Assembly (NCBI GenBank): GCA_003209755.1
Contig: QCPD01000001.1
Span: 186,001 to 250,000, forward strand
Origin: Prochlorococcus sp. AG-436-C14
Lineage (GTDB): Bacteria; Cyanobacteriota; Cyanobacteriia; PCC-6307; Cyanobiaceae
Direction of reading: 5' to 3'
DNA: 64,000 nt
Below are positions 16,301-34,350 of the stretch, in pieces (position 1 is the first letter of the stretch; every line of letters begins with the position of its first letter). A model generated the notes under the pieces. The model ran no database searches. It had not been told where the DNA came from and saw nothing but the letters and a program-made list of their open reading frames with translations. Position numbers and translations under genes: made by a program.

Positions 16301-16584
16301 AACCTATAATTTCGTACAACAATAAGCTCAAAACTTTAAGGATACTACAAAAATGTGCTTTTCACTACAAAAGCATCTATCTTACGCTACATGTAATTTA
16401 TATTAGTGGGTATTTTTTGAGCAGAAAACTAAAAATTTCTTGTCTTTACCTCATTAAAGGAAAAGAAAAATCCAAGCTTGTTGATTATTAATTTGCTTTA
16501 TATTTCTAGAGTTTTTAAATTATTAATGACAAAATTCTATATTTAATTAATCTGAAGCTAGTGAAAATAGACAGATCTAGCAAG

Positions 16585-16845
16585 ATGAGACATCTAAGAT
16601 CATTATTTACAGCCATAATTATTTCAATATCATTTTCAGTGATGGGATGCTCTGGTAATTCCCAAACAAACAGAACTCCTGCACTTTTTGAAACGAAAGA
16701 GGAAGCCAAAAAAGCAGCAAAGGATTTCAATTGCACAGGAGCTCACAAGATGGGAGATAAATGGATGCCTTGTCAAAGTCATTCAGATCATGAAGAGGCA
16801 GAAAAACAGGATTCTCATAATGGCCATCATCATCACCACCACTGA
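16585..16845 (+). CDS. DUF3721-like lipoprotein with C-terminal six-His tail
   Basis: Small lipoprotein of 86 residues from the ATG at 16585 (a GTG 24 bp upstream is also open). The N-terminus MRHLRSLFTAIIISISFSVMGC has a lipobox ending at Cys22. A short helix (ETKEEAKKAAKDF) precedes the motif C50-x3-H54-x8-C63-x2-H66 (CTGAHKMGDKWMPCQSH), which I relate to DUF3721. The C-terminus is acidic and ends in six consecutive histidines. The four Cys/His plus the His tail suggest zinc or another metal as ligand (inference). The next gene, 12 bp downstream, carries the same motif, so the two are probably co-transcribed. Confidence 0.75.
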   Translation: MRHLRSLFTAIIISISFSVMGCSGNSQTNRTPALFETKEEAKKAAKDFNCTGAHKMGDKWMPCQSHSDHEEAEKQDSHNGHHHHHH

Positions 16846-16857
16846 AATTTTTAGATA

Positions 16858-17301
16858 ATGACAAATTCAAATAATGTCGATCAGAAAAATCTCGAAGGTA
16901 CTTCGCATTGCGGAAGTAAACCCAAAAAAATTGCCTTTGGGATAGCACCACTCGGATTTATATCCGTTGGAATTGTTCCAATGGGGATTGTTACCATTGG
17001 AATTGTTCCCATGGGTGTAGTTTCTATAGGCGTAGTAGCTATGGGAGTCGTAAATGCCTCAATAGTAGGAATGGGTATATTTTCTGCAGGGATAACAACT
17101 ATGGGTCTAAAAGTATGGAGTCCGGAAAATAATGCTATTCAGGAATCAATAAATCGTTCACATTCTCCTTCTTCAAAAAATTTATATGCTTATCCATCTA
17201 AATCTCAGGCAGAAATCGAAGCCAAAAAACTCGGTTGCGCTGGTGTCCATAAAATGGGGAAATTATGGATGCCCTGCGCCACTCACTTCAATCCAGACTA
17301 A
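16858..17301 (+). CDS. Pentapeptide-repeat-like protein fused to a DUF3721-like motif
   Basis: 147 residues in two parts. Residues 28-83 are eleven tandem five-residue units of the form G-[IV]-[VI]-x-[MIL] (GIVPM, GIVTI, GVVSI, GVVAM), which could form a membrane-associated or beta-helical rod. After a linker, residues 127-143 repeat the C-x3-H-x8-C-x2-H motif with CAGVHKMGKLWMPCATH, nearly identical to the preceding lipoprotein. There is no classical signal peptide. Only 12 bp separate the two genes. Function is unknown; position in a Zur/Znu neighbourhood suggests metal handling (inference). Confidence 0.75.
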   Translation: MTNSNNVDQKNLEGTSHCGSKPKKIAFGIAPLGFISVGIVPMGIVTIGIVPMGVVSIGVVAMGVVNASIVGMGIFSAGITTMGLKVWSPENNAIQESINRSHSPSSKNLYAYPSKSQAEIEAKKLGCAGVHKMGKLWMPCATHFNPD

Positions 17302-18220: not shown

Positions 18221-19006
18221 TTATCTATTTCTTGGTAGCAATATCAATGAAATCACACATAGAACACTAATCAAAGGTCCAGGAGGCAAATTCAAAATCA
18301 TAGCCAGCGAAAAACCTATAAGCGATAAAATCAATCCAAATATGGAGGCTCGAGCCATCGCAATCCATAGAGATCTTGCTTTCTGTAACCCCAACAAAGT
18401 TGGAGTTGAAAGTAAAGCAATCACGAGAATGACTCCAACTGCAGACATTGAGCTAACAATGACAAGTGCTGTAGTAAAACCTAGAGCCAAATTTAAAAAA
18501 GATACATTCACTCCACTTGAAGCAGCTCCTTCTGGATCTAGACCAATATGAACAAGCTTGTCGTAACCAAAAAGCATCAAGCAAATAAATACAGAGAAAG
18601 CGATAAAAGTTCTTAGTAGATCGCTCAAGTTTGCAGTTAATAAATCTCCAAATAAAACAGCTTCCAAATCAATCCTGATCCCCAGTAGAGGTATAAGTAA
18701 AACACCGAGTCCCATCGAACCAGCAAGAATTGTATTCATAACGGCTTCATAATTTTGATTTTTTTTATTTGTCAAGCTTTCTGCTGCAATAGCTCCTACC
18801 AAGCCACTAATAACTCCACCAATAGAAGGATCCAAACCAAGCGCCATAGCCAAAGCAAGACCTGGTAGAACACAATGCGAAATTAAGTTAACTTGAAGAA
18901 GCCTTTTATGAGTGATCAATACAGTTCCCATAGCAGGGCAAAGTATTCCTGAAAAAGAAGTGATCAAAAGAGGAATTATCCACCAATTTGTATTGAAAAA
19001 AGACAT
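18221..19006 (-). CDS. znuB: Zinc ABC transporter permease ZnuB
   Basis: Inner-membrane permease of the ABC-3 family, 261 residues with about eight hydrophobic helices. Family features: the N-terminal LLITSFSGILCPAMGTVLITHKRLLQVNLISHCVLPGLALA region, GLDPEGAASSGV (the cytoplasmic coupling motif with D-P-x-x-A) and the SAVGVILVIALLSTPTL stretch. Together with ZnuA and ZnuC it imports Zn2+. It is on the same strand as znuC but separated from it by zur, which is on the opposite strand; only 17 bp separate its ATG from that of zur. Confidence 0.92.
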   Translation of the reverse strand: MSFFNTNWWIIPLLITSFSGILCPAMGTVLITHKRLLQVNLISHCVLPGLALAMALGLDPSIGGVISGLVGAIAAESLTNKKNQNYEAVMNTILAGSMGLGVLLIPLLGIRIDLEAVLFGDLLTANLSDLLRTFIAFSVFICLMLFGYDKLVHIGLDPEGAASSGVNVSFLNLALGFTTALVIVSSMSAVGVILVIALLSTPTLLGLQKARSLWIAMARASIFGLILSLIGFSLAMILNLPPGPLISVLCVISLILLPRNR

Positions 19007-19023: not shown

Positions 19024-19464
19024 ATGGTCAGTAATGAAGATCAAGTTAAGATCTTGCTAATGAATAAAAGCAAGCCCGAAATCACTAAACGTCAACAACA
19101 ACTGCTCAATGAACTCAAGAAATGTAATGATGAATTGAGTGGGCAAGAGCTGCATAGACAACTTCATAATGGTGAAAAGATAATGGGGCTGACGACGGTC
19201 TATCGAAACCTGCAAGCACTTGTAAAGCAAGGTTTGATTCGTTCGAGACATCTTCCCAACGGTGAGGTTCTTTATGCGCCAGTTGAAAGAGATATTCATC
19301 ATTTAACTTGCGTAAGCTGTGGAGAAACCACGCAACTGAAGGGATGTCCTGTCAAAACTCTGAACATGCCTGAAAAAACCTCTAAAAAATTTGAGCTGTT
19401 GTTTCATACTCTTGAATACTTTGGCCTCTGCCAAAATTGTTCTCAAGAATTGAATACTGGATGA
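19024..19464 (+). CDS. zur: Fur-family zinc uptake regulator (Zur)
   Basis: Fur-family repressor, 146 residues from the ATG at 19024; an in-frame ATG at 19060 (MNKSKPEITKRQQQLL) is an alternative start. The winged helix (TKRQQQLLNELKK to GLTTVYRNLQALVKQGLI) is typical. The C-terminal domain has the metal ligands: HHLTCVSC with a first CxxC and CQNC with a second, forming the structural Zn site. Genomic setting inside znu genes and Zur-box-like sites nearby favour Zur over Fur or PerR. It is oriented against znuB and znuC, its start 17 bp from the znuB start and its end 23 bp from the znuC stop. Confidence 0.9.
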   Translation: MVSNEDQVKILLMNKSKPEITKRQQQLLNELKKCNDELSGQELHRQLHNGEKIMGLTTVYRNLQALVKQGLIRSRHLPNGEVLYAPVERDIHHLTCVSCGETTQLKGCPVKTLNMPEKTSKKFELLFHTLEYFGLCQNCSQELNTG

Positions 19465-19487: not shown

Positions 19488-20186
19488 CTATAGTTTCCAC
19501 CTAAGATAGTTTATTGAACTGAGTTTTTCCTGAACTTGCTGAGGGCTGCCAGAAGCCAAAATAATTTTATCTAAAGCAACAACCTTGTCATAAGCATTTA
19601 AAGATGTTCCCCAGTCGTGGCTACTGACAAAAACAGTCAATCCCGAATCGGCTAGCTGACGAATGATTAATAGGAAATCTTCTTTTGCAGGAGGATCAAA
19701 GGCGGAACAAGGTTCATCAAGAAGAAAAATTTTAGCTGGATTCATTAAAGTTTTGGCAAGTAATGCCCTTTGTTGCTGTCCACCAGATAAAGCATCAAGT
19801 CTCCTTTTTGCTAAATGAGATATTCCAACACGTTGGAGAGCAGCCTCTAACTCACAACAAGTTGATTTCGAATGATTTACTCGACCTAATGAAACTAATC
19901 CTTCAACAGTAATAGGAAAATTCCAATTCAATTTTCCTCGTTGAGGCATTAAAGCTACTTGAGATCGATTATTGATTAATGGTTCTCCCCCAACAGTGAT
20001 TTCTCCTTTATCTGGTTTACTGTTCCCTTGAAGCAAACTTAATAAGGTGGACTTCCCAGCACCATTAGGACCAACAAGAGCAGTCAATGTACCTGGCTCA
20101 AGTTTAAGAGAAACCTTACTTAAAGCAGGTTTGATTTTATTGGAATAGGAATATGTCACATTTTCAGCAATCAAATTAGACATCAA
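19488..20186 (-). CDS. znuC: Zinc ABC transporter ATP-binding protein ZnuC
   Basis: Cytoplasmic ATPase subunit of the zinc transporter, 232 residues. Walker A is GPNGAGKS (about 38-45), the signature is LSGGQQQRALLA and Walker B is IFLLDEP; the H-loop His is in VFVSSHDWG. The start is MMSN, so either of two adjacent ATG codons. It is divergent from znuA across 91 bp containing a Zur box, with a -10-like TATATT/TATTAT on its own strand near 20203-20215. znuB, the expected next gene, comes only after the opposite-strand zur gene. Confidence 0.93.
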   Translation of the reverse strand: MMSNLIAENVTYSYSNKIKPALSKVSLKLEPGTLTALVGPNGAGKSTLLSLLQGNSKPDKGEITVGGEPLINNRSQVALMPQRGKLNWNFPITVEGLVSLGRVNHSKSTCCELEAALQRVGISHLAKRRLDALSGGQQQRALLAKTLMNPAKIFLLDEPCSAFDPPAKEDFLLIIRQLADSGLTVFVSSHDWGTSLNAYDKVVALDKIILASGSPQQVQEKLSSINYLRWKL

Positions 20187-20235
20187 TTAGAGGATTTGCT
20201 GACAAGAAACATAATATACTTGCCAATCTCGAATG

Positions 20236-20252
20236 AAAATGATTATCGTTTT
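20236..20252 (+). promoter_or_regulatory. Zur box in the znuC-znuA divergent promoter
   Basis: AAAATGATTATCGTTTT is a 17-bp imperfect palindrome: 14 of 17 positions match its reverse complement, counting the unpaired centre as a mismatch. It matches the general Zur/Fur-family operator pattern of cyanobacteria (GATAAT-like halves). A -10-like TATGAT follows immediately (20253-20258), 20 bp before the znuA ATG, so bound Zur would cover the znuA promoter; the same site is about 50 bp from the znuC start. Confidence 0.75.
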
Positions 20253-20277: not shown

Positions 20278-21804
20278 ATGTCGAAATTGTTCAATCAACC
20301 AATCAAAAGTAAATCAATAATCAATAAAACAATTATCAAGAGCTCTTTTCTTGCTGGAGCATTTTTATTTTCAGGAATTTATCAGAGCGCACAGGCAAAT
20401 TCAAAATCAATTGTTGCTGTAGAGCCATTAGTTTGCGATGTCGTTTCAGCTATTGCACCACCCTCATCGCCCGTAACCTGCTTAATTGACAGAAAACAAG
20501 ATGTTCATGATGTCAAGATCACTCCAAGGCAGGCTCAAACACTAAAAAGTGCGAATCAAGTATTTACGCTTGGTTCAGAGATGACCCCTGCAATTAAAAA
20601 ATGGTTAGATAATCCCTTGACTGTTGTCGTTGGTGTAAGTGCAATAGAAATAGACGATCATCATGACGACCACGATGATCATTCAGCTGCTAAACATGAC
20701 GATCATGATGACCACGATGATCATTCAGCTGCTAAACATGACGATCATGATGACCACGATGATCATGGTGATAGCCATGGGGAAGGAGCTTTTGAATGGG
20801 CTGGTGTTTTTGATCTTTCAGCAGGAACATACAAATGGTCTTTTGCCAAAGTCGATGGAGACTATGCTGATCCTGCAATGAAAATGGTTATTCTCAATTC
20901 TGGTGATATTGAAGCATCAGAAGAGCTTGCTAAAGAATTATTAGGATCCAAGGATTCAGAAACCAAACGCAATAATGACAAACTTGTTGCGCAGGAAAAA
21001 GCATATTTTCTTTCATTCAATGAGAAGAAAGACATCACAACATTTACTGTAGAAATCAAAAAAGCTGGTAAATATGCATTCTTTACTGAGCATATGCCTT
21101 TTGAGTTTGAAGCCGACGAACATTTCTTTAAGGATGTTTCAGGCGACGATGTTGAACCTATAGCTCAAGTCCCAGATGAAGGCGATCATCATCATCACCA
21201 TGACCATGGTGAGCTAGATCCTCATATCTGGCATGACCCTCATAACATCATCAAGATGGGAAATGTCATTTCTAAAAATATCAATAAGAAAATTTCCTTC
21301 TTTGACAGAGAAACAAAAAAAGTTTTAAAAGAAAGAACTCAAGCCGTTAATTCTATTTTGGAAGATCTCGACTTATGGACTCAAAAACAAGTTGCTACAA
21401 TTCCTACTGATCGAAGGACAATCGTTTCTAAGCACAAAGCGATGGAATATTACGGAGATGCATTTGGCTTGAAGACTTTGAGTCTATTAGATTTCCTTGG
21501 TGATTCTTCCAGCCTTAGACCAGAGACTATTTCTACGGTAATAGCTGAGCTCAAAGAAGAAAACGTGAACGTCTTATTCGCTGAGCAAAAGCCTCCTTCC
21601 AAGCTATTAAAAAACTTGAGCAGACAAACTTCCACCCCTATCGCAAGAAATCAAATCTTTGTCGATAATCTAATGCTAGAAGGGAATACTGTTTCAGTAG
21701 CAGTACACAACACATGTACAATTGTTGATTCTCTTGGTGGAGAATGTGATGAAAAAGAGGGTGAGAAACTCGAGAATGAATGGAATTCCTTAACTAATCC
21801 TTAA
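20278..21804 (+). CDS. znuA: Zinc-binding protein ZnuA with an inserted extra domain
   Basis: Periplasmic zinc-binding component of ZnuABC, 508 residues against about 300 for a usual ZnuA. Signal peptide 1 to about 40. Core ligands and motifs: DVHDVKITPRQAQTLK (72-90), ELDPHIWHDPHN (312-323), KHKAMEYYGDAFGL and the late EQKPPSKLL and VDNLML. The added part, residues about 126-310, contains two His/Asp-rich loops (126-168, with DDHDDHSAAKH repeats; 303-310, DHHHHHDH) flanking an extra domain (about 171-285) that begins FEWAGVFDL and ends near YAFFTEHMPFEF. The same domain is in the COG0523 GTPase at 22188. A Zur box lies directly upstream; genes to 24631 follow as one operon. Confidence 0.93.
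   Translation: MSKLFNQPIKSKSIINKTIIKSSFLAGAFLFSGIYQSAQANSKSIVAVEPLVCDVVSAIAPPSSPVTCLIDRKQDVHDVKITPRQAQTLKSANQVFTLGSEMTPAIKKWLDNPLTVVVGVSAIEIDDHHDDHDDHSAAKHDDHDDHDDHSAAKHDDHDDHDDHGDSHGEGAFEWAGVFDLSAGTYKWSFAKVDGDYADPAMKMVILNSGDIEASEELAKELLGSKDSETKRNNDKLVAQEKAYFLSFNEKKDITTFTVEIKKAGKYAFFTEHMPFEFEADEHFFKDVSGDDVEPIAQVPDEGDHHHHHDHGELDPHIWHDPHNIIKMGNVISKNINKKISFFDRETKKVLKERTQAVNSILEDLDLWTQKQVATIPTDRRTIVSKHKAMEYYGDAFGLKTLSLLDFLGDSSSLRPETISTVIAELKEENVNVLFAEQKPPSKLLKNLSRQTSTPIARNQIFVDNLMLEGNTVSVAVHNTCTIVDSLGGECDEKEGEKLENEWNSLTNP
20659..20766 (+). repeat. 42-bp tandem repeat in znuA encoding His/Asp-rich units
   Basis: Copies start at 20659, 20701 and 20743. The first two match at 40 of 42 positions and the third keeps the first 24 bases exactly, then diverges. 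Each unit encodes DHDDHDDHSAAKHD-type residues, so changes in copy number would lengthen or shorten the metal-binding loop in frame. Confidence 0.85.
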
Positions 21805-21821
21805 TTTTTAAGGTTGAGAGA

Positions 21822-22178
21822 ATGTCTAGTTTTATTAAAGGTAGACATTCTTTCAACTCAATGTTTCAAACAAAAGGATATAAAGCTTACAAACAACATT
21901 GGGAAGACCAGGCAGGTTTCATGGATAAGCCACCATGGAATAAAGACAAGGTCTTAAAACTTACTATCTCAACTGATTTCGTAGAAAATCTAAAAGAACT
22001 TCAATTTTCAAATCATTCGCTAAGAAAAGAGAAGGGAAAACATACATTAAGAGTAAAGGTTCCATACAACTATAGTGATCTTGATGACTTTGAAATAAAA
22101 TCACTTGACTTATTGGGTATCAAAGAGAATTGGTTAACTGATATTTCTCTTGATAATTCTCATTGTTCACATTATTAA
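21822..22178 (+). CDS. Hypothetical protein in the zinc operon
   Basis: 118 residues, no family recognised and no signal peptide or membrane helix seen. It is basic and mixed alpha/beta in character: KGYKAYKQHWEDQAGFMDKPPWNKDKVLKLTIS at the front, a Lys-rich middle, then YNYSDLDDFEIKSLDLLGI, and a C-terminal HCSHY that could be a metal ligand. It lies 17 bp after znuA and 9 bp before the GTPase gene, so it should be co-transcribed and Zur-controlled. Function is unknown. Confidence 0.7.
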   Translation: MSSFIKGRHSFNSMFQTKGYKAYKQHWEDQAGFMDKPPWNKDKVLKLTISTDFVENLKELQFSNHSLRKEKGKHTLRVKVPYNYSDLDDFEIKSLDLLGIKENWLTDISLDNSHCSHY

Positions 22179-22187
22179 GTAAAAAAA

Positions 22188-23570
22188 ATGAGCAACAAGC
22201 AAAAAGTACCGGTTACAATACTGACTGGTTTTCTAGGATCTGGAAAAACAACTCTACTTAATCGAATCCTGAGTGAAGAGCATGGTAAAAAAATAGCTGT
22301 TATTGAAAATGAATATGGTGAAGTTGGCATTGATCAAGGATTAGTAATCAATGCTGACGAAGAGGTCTTCGAGATGTCGAATGGTTGCATCTGCTGCACC
22401 GTTCGGGGTGATCTTATTCGTGTACTTGGAAACCTCATGAAGAGGCGAGACAAATTTGACTATGTATTAGTTGAAACTACTGGCCTTGCTGATCCTGGTC
22501 CTGTTGCTCAGACTTTCTTTATGGACGATGAAATCCGTGAGGAGTTTGCACTTGATGGCATAGTCACACTTGTTGATGCAGCCCATATAGAGCAACAACT
22601 TGGTCGAAGTGATGAGAGTTCAGAGCAAGTTGCCTTTGCTGACGTCCTTATCCTAAATAAAACTGATCTAGTTTCAGATGAATCACTCGACAACTTAGAG
22701 TCACGGCTACGCGATATGAATCGCATGGCTCGTTTGATACGCAGTAAGCAAGCAGACGTCTCAATTGATACTGTGCTAAATCTAAGTGCTTTTGATCTAG
22801 ATCAAGTACTTCAGCGTCGTCCAACTTTTCTGGAACCAGAATATCCATTTGAGTGGACAGGTGTGTTTGCACTTGAAGAAGGTCGCTATGAACTTACTCT
22901 CGAAGAAGGGCCAGACCCTACTATGTCTCTTGTCCTGTTGTTAAACCAAGGCAAGGATGAGACATCACTCAACTCAGGGGCTGAATCATGCGTAAGACTA
23001 TATGCCGAACAAGAACAACCTTTGGAACCAGGCGACATAGTCCCCGTTGGGAAGCATGTGAGCCTTCAACTTCAATCCAAAGGGACTAAGTCTTTCTTCA
23101 TAGATGTTGATAAGGCAAAGGATATAGGTCTATTTACTCAACATACAGCCGAAGAATTTAATATGAAGTTAAAGAAAGTAAATACTCCTTCTAAGGACGA
23201 GATAAATAATGATCAGAGCATCTCTACAATTTCTCCAATAGCTGAACGAGTTTGGGTAGCAGAGCACGAACATGATGACGAAGTAGGTTCCATTGCTATC
23301 GAGCGAACAGGGGATGTAGATCCAGAGAAACTCAATAGGTGGTTAAGCCGGCTCCTATCAGAAAAAGGAGTGGATATATTTCGTACGAAGGGATTCATTA
23401 GTTACGCGGGCGAGTCTAAGAGAATAGTTTTTCAAGGAGTACATATGCTCTTCACCGCCCAACCTGATAAAGAGTGGGGCAATGAGCCTCGCCGTAACCA
23501 ACTAGTCTTTATCGGTAGAAATCTTGACGAAGCAGAAATGAGTAGAGAGTTTGACAAATGTCTGGTATAG
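22188..23570 (+). CDS. COG0523/CobW-family GTPase with an inserted extra domain
   Basis: Putative zinc metallochaperone GTPase, 460 residues. The G domain (1 to about 210) has Walker A GFLGSGKTT (14-22), ENEYGEVGID, the metal-binding CICC (67-70), ETTGLADP and NKTD. Residues about 221-330 are an extra domain beginning FEWTGVFALEEGRYEL and ending near GLFTQHTAEEF, which matches the insert in ZnuA. Residues about 350-455 are the CobW C-terminal domain (GVDIFRTKGFISYAG, FQGVHMLFTAQP, RRNQLVFIGRNLDE). Family members linked to Zur hand Zn to target enzymes; place in the znuA operon supports this. It overlaps the WD40 gene by 13 bp. Confidence 0.92.
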   Translation: MSNKQKVPVTILTGFLGSGKTTLLNRILSEEHGKKIAVIENEYGEVGIDQGLVINADEEVFEMSNGCICCTVRGDLIRVLGNLMKRRDKFDYVLVETTGLADPGPVAQTFFMDDEIREEFALDGIVTLVDAAHIEQQLGRSDESSEQVAFADVLILNKTDLVSDESLDNLESRLRDMNRMARLIRSKQADVSIDTVLNLSAFDLDQVLQRRPTFLEPEYPFEWTGVFALEEGRYELTLEEGPDPTMSLVLLLNQGKDETSLNSGAESCVRLYAEQEQPLEPGDIVPVGKHVSLQLQSKGTKSFFIDVDKAKDIGLFTQHTAEEFNMKLKKVNTPSKDEINNDQSISTISPIAERVWVAEHEHDDEVGSIAIERTGDVDPEKLNRWLSRLLSEKGVDIFRTKGFISYAGESKRIVFQGVHMLFTAQPDKEWGNEPRRNQLVFIGRNLDEAEMSREFDKCLV

Positions 23571-24631
23571 AAGCATTTAGTCCAAAAGGAATGCTTCATG
23601 AAGGTTGGTCTGCTCAAGTTGACGACTATGCGATTGTCTGCGGCTGGGCATTACAAGGTAAAACTTTTTTAGTAGGTGATGTTGCTGGAGGTCTTTACGC
23701 GTTTGAGGGGAAATCTGGAAAGCTTATTTGGCAATCAAAAGACATACATAAAGGTGGCTTACTAGCAATGTCTATTCATCCAGATGGAAATACTTTTGCA
23801 ACTGCTGGCCAGGATGGACATGTTTGTATATGGGAAAGCAAAGAGGGTAAGTCAACTAAAAATTTGGAACTAGGGAAAGGATGGGTTGAACACATCAAGT
23901 GGTCCCCAGACGGAAAATTTTTAGCAGTAGTTTTTACTAAATACGTCTATGTTTTTGATGAAAATGGTCAAGAACATTGGCGATCAGAGGAGCATCCCAG
24001 CACTGTCAGCGCGATTTCCTGGTCTAATTCCAATGAACTAGCCACAGCATGCTATGGCCAAGTAACTTTTTTTGATGTAGTAAGCGACAAGATCAATCAA
24101 AAGTTGGAGTGGCGAGGCTCACTGGTATCTATGGTGCTTAGTCCAGATGGAGACATCGTGGCATGCGGCAGTCAGGATAATTCTGTTCATTTCTGGCGTC
24201 GTTCCACTGATCAAGATTCAGAGATGACAGGCTACCCAGGCAAACCAAGCCATCTAGCTTTTGATCAAACCGGCACAGTCCTTGCTACCGGGGGTAGTGA
24301 TCGAGTGACGGTTTGGAGTTTTCAAGGCGATGGCCCTGAGGGCACTGTGCCAGGAGAGTTAATGCTTCATACGGAACCCATTTCATGCCTTGCTTTCTCA
24401 CATAGCGGGATGCTTTTAGCTTCTGGCGCGCGCGATGGTTCAGTTTTTTCTTGGTTTCTCCAAAAAGATGGTCAGGGTGATCCAGTTGGTGGTGCATTTG
24501 CAGGTGACCTTGTCAGCCAAATCGCTTGGCATCCTGATGACACTGCCTTGGCTGCAATAAATGCAAATGGCGGAATTACGGTTTGGGAGTTTAAGGCTCG
24601 GACAAAAACAACACCTCAAGGAGTCAGATAA
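23558..24631 (+). CDS. WD40 repeat protein in the zinc operon
   Basis: 357 residues made of about seven beta-propeller blades. Blade ends can be read as GQDGHVCIWES, SQDNSVHFWRR, GSDRVTVWSF, ARDGSVFSWFL and ANGGITVWEF. No signal peptide, so cytoplasmic. The ATG lies inside the GTPase gene's last 13 bp, which strongly implies coupled translation. It is likely a scaffold or partner of the GTPase, perhaps holding its zinc-requiring client; this is inference from adjacency. It ends the znuA operon. Confidence 0.88.
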   Translation: MSGIEAFSPKGMLHEGWSAQVDDYAIVCGWALQGKTFLVGDVAGGLYAFEGKSGKLIWQSKDIHKGGLLAMSIHPDGNTFATAGQDGHVCIWESKEGKSTKNLELGKGWVEHIKWSPDGKFLAVVFTKYVYVFDENGQEHWRSEEHPSTVSAISWSNSNELATACYGQVTFFDVVSDKINQKLEWRGSLVSMVLSPDGDIVACGSQDNSVHFWRRSTDQDSEMTGYPGKPSHLAFDQTGTVLATGGSDRVTVWSFQGDGPEGTVPGELMLHTEPISCLAFSHSGMLLASGARDGSVFSWFLQKDGQGDPVGGAFAGDLVSQIAWHPDDTALAAINANGGITVWEFKARTKTTPQGVR

Positions 24632-33744: not shown

Positions 33745-34350
33745 TCAAGATTTTTGTATTTGATTACACAAAAAAGATTCGATGATATTAAGTCCTTCCC
33801 CTGTCTTGGTATTTGTAAAGCACCATGGAAGATCTCCCCTCATCAACATGGTGTCTCTCTCCATCACTTCCAAACTTGCACCTACCATTTCAGCAAGATC
33901 AATCTTATTAATTACTAATAAATCTGAGCGTGTTATCCCAGGCCCTCCTTTCCTTGGAATCTTATCTCCAGCTGCAACGTCAATTATATAAATACACAAA
34001 TCTACTAACTCTGGACTAAAACTTGCAGCAAGATTATCACCACCACTTTCAACAAATACTAAATCTAGAGTTGCAAATCTCTGTTCTAGCTCTTCAACAG
34101 CAATGCGATTTATAGAACAATCTTCTCTTATCGCTGTATGTGGACATCCTCCAGTCTCAACTCCTTTGATACGTTCTGGTACTAAAGCCTTTGAATTAGT
34201 CAAAAATTTTGCATCTTCTTGTGTATAGATATCATTAGTTACCACGGCTATCTCTAGTTGATCTTTAAGATTTTCACATAGTCTCTGAATAATAGCTGTT
34301 TTGCCAGATCCTACTGGACCAGCTATTCCAACCCTTAATTTACTTTCCAT
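33745..34350 (-). CDS. ureG: Urease accessory GTPase UreG
   Basis: GTPase that powers nickel insertion into urease. 201 residues from the ATG at 34348-34350 ([21 protein letters not shown]); the open frame runs 25 codons further upstream but that part lies in ureF. The P loop is GPVGSGKT, the nickel/zinc dimer motif is [13 protein letters not shown] with Cys-Pro-His, then [17 protein letters not shown] and the NKID base-recognition motif. It overlaps ureF by one base (TAATG). The gene order is ureE-ureF-ureG on the minus strand. Confidence 0.95.

Follow-up and report, generated by a model that had tools for sequence, protein, structure and literature searches.

A shared, unnamed domain in the ZnuA-type protein and the adjacent COG0523 GTPase of a probable zinc operon in Prochlorococcus

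The window, a 64,000-nucleotide stretch of Prochlorococcus sp. AG-436-C14, contains a probable zinc operon in which a gene for an exported ZnuA-type protein is followed by a gene for a cytoplasmic GTPase. The genes and features around these two proteins, in window coordinates, are:

18221..19006, minus strand: ABC transporter permease, ZnuB-like (PF00950, E = 7.9e-43).
19024..19464, plus strand: Fur-family regulator, Zur candidate (PF01475, E = 3.9e-17).
19488..20186, minus strand: ABC transporter ATPase, ZnuC-like, divergent from znuA (PF00005, E = 9.2e-31).
20234..20248, plus strand: palindromic Zur-box-like site between znuC and znuA, conserved across related upstream regions.
20278..21804, plus strand: exported metal-binding protein of the ZnuA type, 508 aa, whose His/Asp-rich loop region holds the extra domain (PF01297, E = 2.6e-44).
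20788..21141, plus strand: domain copy 1, ZnuA residues 171-288 (quartet E173, D198, H272, E276; model pLDDT 85).
21822..22178, plus strand: 118-aa open reading frame between znuA and the GTPase gene, without a family and outside the domain.
22188..23570, plus strand: COG0523/CobW-type G3E GTPase, 460 aa (PF02492, E = 4.7e-62; PF07683, E = 1.2e-25).
22845..23183, plus strand: domain copy 2, GTPase residues 220-332 (quartet E222, D243, H319, E323; model pLDDT 87).
23558..24631, plus strand: WD40 beta-propeller protein, its start overlapping the 3′ end of the GTPase gene (PF00400, E = 7.8e-31).

The window ZnuA belongs to PF01297 (152.1 bits against a cut-off of 29) and carries DVHDVK at residue 75, DPHIWHDP at 314, SKHKAMEYYG at 384 and FAEQ at 434, which we take to be metal-ligand motifs. 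By eye, its N-terminus is signal-like and ends in AQA, and the closest relative among the genome contigs compared has a ZnuA 97% identical to it. It thus shares the family match, the usual motifs and a His-rich loop with other ZnuA or cluster A-I zinc-binding proteins, and differs in having a predicted folded domain of about 115 residues in the His/Asp loop region. The GTPase is a COG0523 member with cobW (PF02492, 209.2 bits) and CobW_C (PF07683, 89.6 bits) matches, a P-loop close to the N-terminus (GSGKTT), a CxCC motif (GCICC), ETTGLADP, an NKxD motif (NKTD) and HEHDD; no signal peptide was seen on it by eye. Here, the domain is placed between the G domain and the HEHDD motif at residue 360. 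The first-pass annotation had proposed these two positions, and they hold, as do the motif coordinates: in ZnuA, FEW, DPxM and FT[EQ]H lie at residues 172, 198 and 269, and in the GTPase at 221, 243 and 316. The small open reading frame between the two genes has homologues at 62 of 157 loci.

ZnuA residues 171-288 and GTPase residues 220-332 are copies of one domain family of about 115 residues, as had been proposed from the motifs. Their local alignment scores 91, a value reached by 0 of 5000 shuffles (mean 27.7, sd 5.0, maximum 58), on which chance motif matches are rejected, and a one-sequence BLASTP search without composition adjustment gives 44.3 bits (E = 5e-9). Comparison of profiles built from 12 ZnuA and 12 GTPase rows returns a probability of 96.6 (E = 6.4e-10) over 100 columns. 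Larger profiles, built from 61 unique ZnuA-type rows and 97 unique GTPase-type rows, score 50.2, and the highest of 100 column shuffles reaches 14.2. The similarity is concentrated at the ends of the domain, and the core is variable. When the core (DPxM to FTxH) of ZnuA and GTPase copies is compared directly, the result is non-significant, both in one comparison (6.9, equalled by 9 of 100 shuffles) and in a second (14.2 against a null maximum of 16.2). The core is instead connected in steps, from ZnuA to the haloarchaeal and Alicyclobacillus copies (28.5 against a shuffle maximum of 16.0), from the haloarchaeal copies to those of deep cyanobacterial GTPases (30.1 against 15.1), and from these to the GTPases of the window's family (38.4 against 15.7). 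Direct comparison of that last group with the haloarchaeal copies (17.7 against 16.2), or with the haloarchaeal and Alicyclobacillus copies together (19.7 against 19.3), is marginal; 25 shuffles were used for the second direct comparison and for each of these five. Similarity beyond the short motifs, which had been set as a check, is significant in the core through intermediates, but not directly. Although that direct result is what would be expected if there were no single domain and the short motifs were alike through chance or convergence, we regard this as very improbable given the shuffled alignments, the intermediates, the nearly identical order of strands and helix in two structural models, and the retrieval of the same 11 plasmid records with three different starting copies.

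The fold is predicted to be beta-rich with one helix, and is probably a beta-sandwich. The best of five AlphaFold models has a pLDDT of 85.2 for copy 1 and 86.7 for copy 2, with the other four of the first run between 69.9 and 80.7. Both models contain three strands, a helix and five strands, each having one short or late strand absent from the other; the first was built on mixed rows and is therefore not independent, while the second was built on GTPase rows only. The possibility that structure prediction would reveal unrelated folds is thus answered by a secondary-structure order that is nearly the same in both. Foldseek searches of the PDB with both models gave no matches at E ≤ 0.001, with adhesins, carbohydrate-binding modules and viral haemagglutinins among the non-significant neighbours, and nothing significant came from a sequence-profile search of the PDB (best E 0.3 and 0.051). 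The domain had been described as lacking a known name, and it is unnamed across Pfam (searched with whole proteins), NCBIfam and PHROGs, where zero significant matches cover it. The sole Pfam best stretch within a copy is FAP42_B3 (E = 0.12), in the GTPase of locus L141. ZrgA is a periplasmic zinc helper protein, like ZinT and AztD; its match in the window ZnuA spans residues 85-169, N-terminal to the domain, and no NCBIfam match lies inside either window copy. A literature search found no title or abstract start describing the domain, with most subscription papers outside its coverage.

Four residues stand out in the family. From 237 domain hits, 173 unique copies remained after identical ones and those shorter than 95 residues were dropped, including cut copies at L152 (39 residues) and L157 (78 residues). 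The first glutamate of the quartet is conserved in 172 of these, the lone exception being a copy that starts late, while the aspartate, the histidine and the last glutamate are each found in all 173; of these copies, 158 belong to organisms of the family from which the window comes, and the motifs are part of the profiles used to retrieve the copies. With nine groups equally weighted, the quartet positions are the only charged or histidine columns at or above 0.8. Glutamate, aspartate and histidine are often metal ligands. Columns of W, G, L, P, T and F likewise reach 0.8 under this weighting, and with W, G, P and F conserved next to the quartet, its four residues could instead have a structural role. 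Cysteine occurs in 73 of the 173 copies, and no cysteine column is above half of them, which fits use both inside and outside the cytoplasm.

The domain is a wider family across archaea and bacteria and is not private to the operon of the window. Its own genome (1.72 Mb) contains just the two window matches. This genome also encodes a second ZnuA-family protein (333 aa) and has three strong G3E GTPase matches; the former has no match to the domain. At 80 loci chosen by ZnuA similarity, the ZnuA copy is found in 80 and the GTPase copy in 76, the four loci without the latter (L029, L037, L066, L078) ending within about 0.5 kb of znuA. Among 386 genomes of the phylum, 31 match profile A3 (27 from the window's family and four of the 18 genomes of one other class) and 33 match profile A4, two of them weakly. 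Within the window's family, 50 of 201 genomes match. Five genomes reported as 99-100% complete (G219, G221, G257, G291, G358) have a single match each, in a frame of 453-467 aa. G339 and G351 gave weak matches to part of the domain (E about 0.001-0.01), which were not accepted. No match was found among 50,697 phage records, and none of 37 pattern stretches on viral contigs was confirmed.

Among 72,556 plasmid records, nine match the window ZnuA copy, and each of three other copies retrieves an identical set of 11; ten of the 11, all except Haloarcula rara, were inspected. These searches yielded both kinds of protein that had been sought outside the operon. ZnuA proteins with the domain are encoded on plasmids of Halorientalis, Halorubrum and Haloarcula halophila, where the frame is shortened in H. 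halophila at the site inspected, and stand-alone proteins with His-rich ends and a lipobox-like cysteine are present in Natrinema, Halomontanus and Halosolutus. The Natrinema gene directly follows urease genes; those of Halomontanus and Halosolutus have no obvious adjacent metal gene. An Alicyclobacillus protein has hydrophobic segments, with His-rich stretches flanking the domain and cation transporter genes around it. GTPase hosts occur on plasmids of Paraburkholderia and two Pantoea, one of them apparently broken. Nickel/cobalt-transporter-like genes lie close to the GTPases at L140 and L141 (by eye), and a nickel transporter is annotated at L157. In two haloarchaeal loci (L152, L155), GTPase genes beside a domain-bearing ZnuA gave no match to the domain (one was examined at full length). 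The proposal of one module used by two proteins of a probable zinc operon, one exported and one cytoplasmic, is upheld; the haloarchaeal, Alicyclobacillus and other bacterial copies show that the module is not specific to that operon.

In ZnuA, the segments around the domain are rich in His and Asp. Counting identical proteins, 85 of 86 ZnuA-type copies have at least four histidines in their flanks, and an HxHD motif follows within 75 residues C-terminal of the domain in 118 of 122 distinct GTPases, the four misses being two cut frames and two near variants. As a universal rule, histidine enrichment is borne out in part only: measured against each protein's own His density, the flank ranks in the top 5% for only 59 of 209 proteins, a test that excludes L145 and frames containing unknown residues. 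Most domain-bearing GTPases have the short HxHD alone.

In a domain tree of 31 rows taken from the 173 unique sequences, a branch (92/88) separates the GTPase copies from those of the ZnuA, stand-alone and Alicyclobacillus proteins, and the ZnuA copies of the window's family group with haloarchaeal ones (94/86), both forks being under the tool's starred level and the ZnuA branch being long (2.7). This split argues against recent copying from GTPase to ZnuA, an argument limited by the long branches, and recent duplication within the operon is disfavoured to the same extent. Six of 81 genomes from the family encode a GTPase of 57-61% identity that aligns no further than residue 218 or 219, and in the five of these that were examined (not G413), the domain is missing as a block right before the H-x-H. 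Same-family ZnuA-type proteins without the domain also exist, so the domain is not essential to either host. Of 136 domain-bearing GTPase copies counted, 131 have a WD40 gene next to them, 124 with an identical 12-base offset, in a count that excludes L002-L004 and four copies short of downstream sequence and that includes some hits twice in overlapping loci; the five misses are a haloarchaeal false GTPase found by a loose motif (L153) and two GTPases counted twice (L112/L141 and L114/L142). Four of the five domain-free GTPases also have a separate adjacent WD40 gene, and the frame of the fifth ends WD40-like. The pairing of GTPase and WD40 protein is therefore independent of the domain, which disfavours the idea of an adaptor required by the WD40 protein.

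The operon with both domain copies is probably under Zur control. Across 79 znuA upstream regions, the Zur-box-like site is exact in 60 and present with at most one mismatch in 72, against 0.4% of shuffled regions at that level, although these regions are mutually related, the pattern was picked after the window site was known, and one of 80 regions was too short to be used. The site mostly lies about 40 bases upstream of the longest znuA frame. Within the window itself, the number of matches to the pattern is ordinary (three, equalled by 6 of 100 shuffles). In Synechococcus WH8102, divergent znuC and znuA are bound and repressed by Zur, probably via one shared box, according to PMC9337993; the window matches this arrangement, the likeness being one of gene order.

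Some of this neighbourhood is known. WD40 and znuABC neighbours of COG0523 subfamily 5 are reported by Haas et al., 2009 (PMC2770081). The window GTPase shares with that subfamily, to which it is likened by its neighbours, the G domain, GCICC, CobW_C and the adjacent WD40 and znu genes, and it differs in carrying an insert between the G domain and HxHD that same-family relatives lack.

It is hypothesized that the domain binds a transition metal through its E, D, H and E residues and acts as an intermediate site beside a His-containing loop, a reading from sequence to which we give roughly even odds (about 0.5). The metal would be zinc here, and perhaps nickel or cobalt in some hosts. The His-containing loop would collect the metal, the domain would hold it through the quartet, and it would then be handed to the main site, which for ZnuA is the cleft outside the cytoplasmic membrane and for the GTPase would be the HxHD/CobW_C region inside the cell, with the two copies in one operon derived from separate sub-lineages. 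Three observations suggest such a role: every host of known type is a metal protein, the domain adjoins or lies in His-rich or HxHD segments, and its near-invariant charged and histidine residues are E, D, H and E. The earlier suggestion of a zinc-related role survives in this conditional form, and none of the observations points to dimerisation, which had been offered as an alternative. AztD and ZinT act as additional carriers that supply zinc to a ZnuA-type protein (PMC6689063), and the window domain may work in a manner like these and ZrgA. Which metal the ZnuA-like proteins of picocyanobacteria carry is itself called unresolved in a review (PMC8786288, section 11).

Two other explanations were weighed. 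In one, it is a docking module whose contact with a partner or a second copy joins carriers, the kept residues forming a contact surface or stabilising the fold. Recognition is a frequent role of beta-rich folds, and the non-significant structural neighbours, together with the WD40 gene beside nearly all counted GTPase copies, point in this direction; however, WD40 genes are present where the GTPase is without the domain, the hosts occupy different compartments, and the invariant charged and histidine residues are of metal-ligand type, and so we consider docking unlikely. In the other, which appears to us a poorer prospect, the domain binds no metal itself and serves passively, as a cap or spacer that keeps the His-rich loop ordered and either shields the metal site or controls access to it. 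Its position in the ZnuA loop region and ahead of HxHD in the GTPase would suit this, as would conserved ends around a variable core, but retention of the E/D/H/E quartet in both compartments is unexpected of a passive spacer.

An extension of the metal-binding hypothesis, put forward tentatively and somewhat against the odds, is that the domain might be a portable relay with one E/D/H/E site on both sides of the membrane, in archaea and bacteria, so that metal could move between like sites all the way from uptake to delivery. Its hosts may then be capture proteins, a permease-like protein, lipoprotein-like carriers and delivery GTPases. Picocyanobacteria inhabit waters very low in zinc, and to our knowledge the route of zinc from import proteins to cytoplasmic users is poorly known. 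With the domain at both ends of the pathway, four defined residues and relatives with and without it, the question becomes testable, and the family would flag metal proteins now labelled hypothetical, such as the haloarchaeal stand-alone proteins.

Two cases of apparent doubling were also seen. In G223, an 873-aa ZnuA frame shows the domain twice, but this is probably an assembly product, since a run of unknown residues splits two like stretches. The tandem copies of G161 look real and are identical at 88 of 116 residues.

Among the places where the unnamed domain occurs are two plasmid records from outside cyanobacteria and one ZnuA that carries it twice (coordinates local to each locus):

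L149:4887-5435, Natrinema, stand-alone domain protein
L150:4788-5696, Alicyclobacillus, domain protein
L144:3718-5556, genome G161, ZnuA frame with two domain copies

Together with a lipobox-like start and ends rich in His, the domain makes up the Natrinema protein, whose gene is immediately preceded by one of the ureF family; we regard this protein as a candidate nickel carrier. In the Alicyclobacillus protein, which gave no significant Pfam match, hydrophobic segments flank the domain; this protein also has an H-x4-D-H motif that we take to be reminiscent of nickel/cobalt permeases. The two copies in the G161 ZnuA are arranged in tandem and differ from one another, with 88 of 116 residues identical.

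Three further features lie within the window:

21822-22178, 118-aa ORF between znuA and the GTPase gene
about 33826-34332, minus strand, further G3E GTPase
16561-17301, two adjacent ORFs

The 118-aa ORF has no family match; its homologues are found at 62 of the 157 loci compared; in loci such as L039 the znuA-to-GTPase gap is about 80 bases, too short to hold it. Inspected by eye, the sequence of the further G3E GTPase reads like UreG, and urease genes may therefore be present in the window. The first ORF of the adjacent pair matches DUF3721 and carries a tail of six His, and a similar segment was read by eye in the second.
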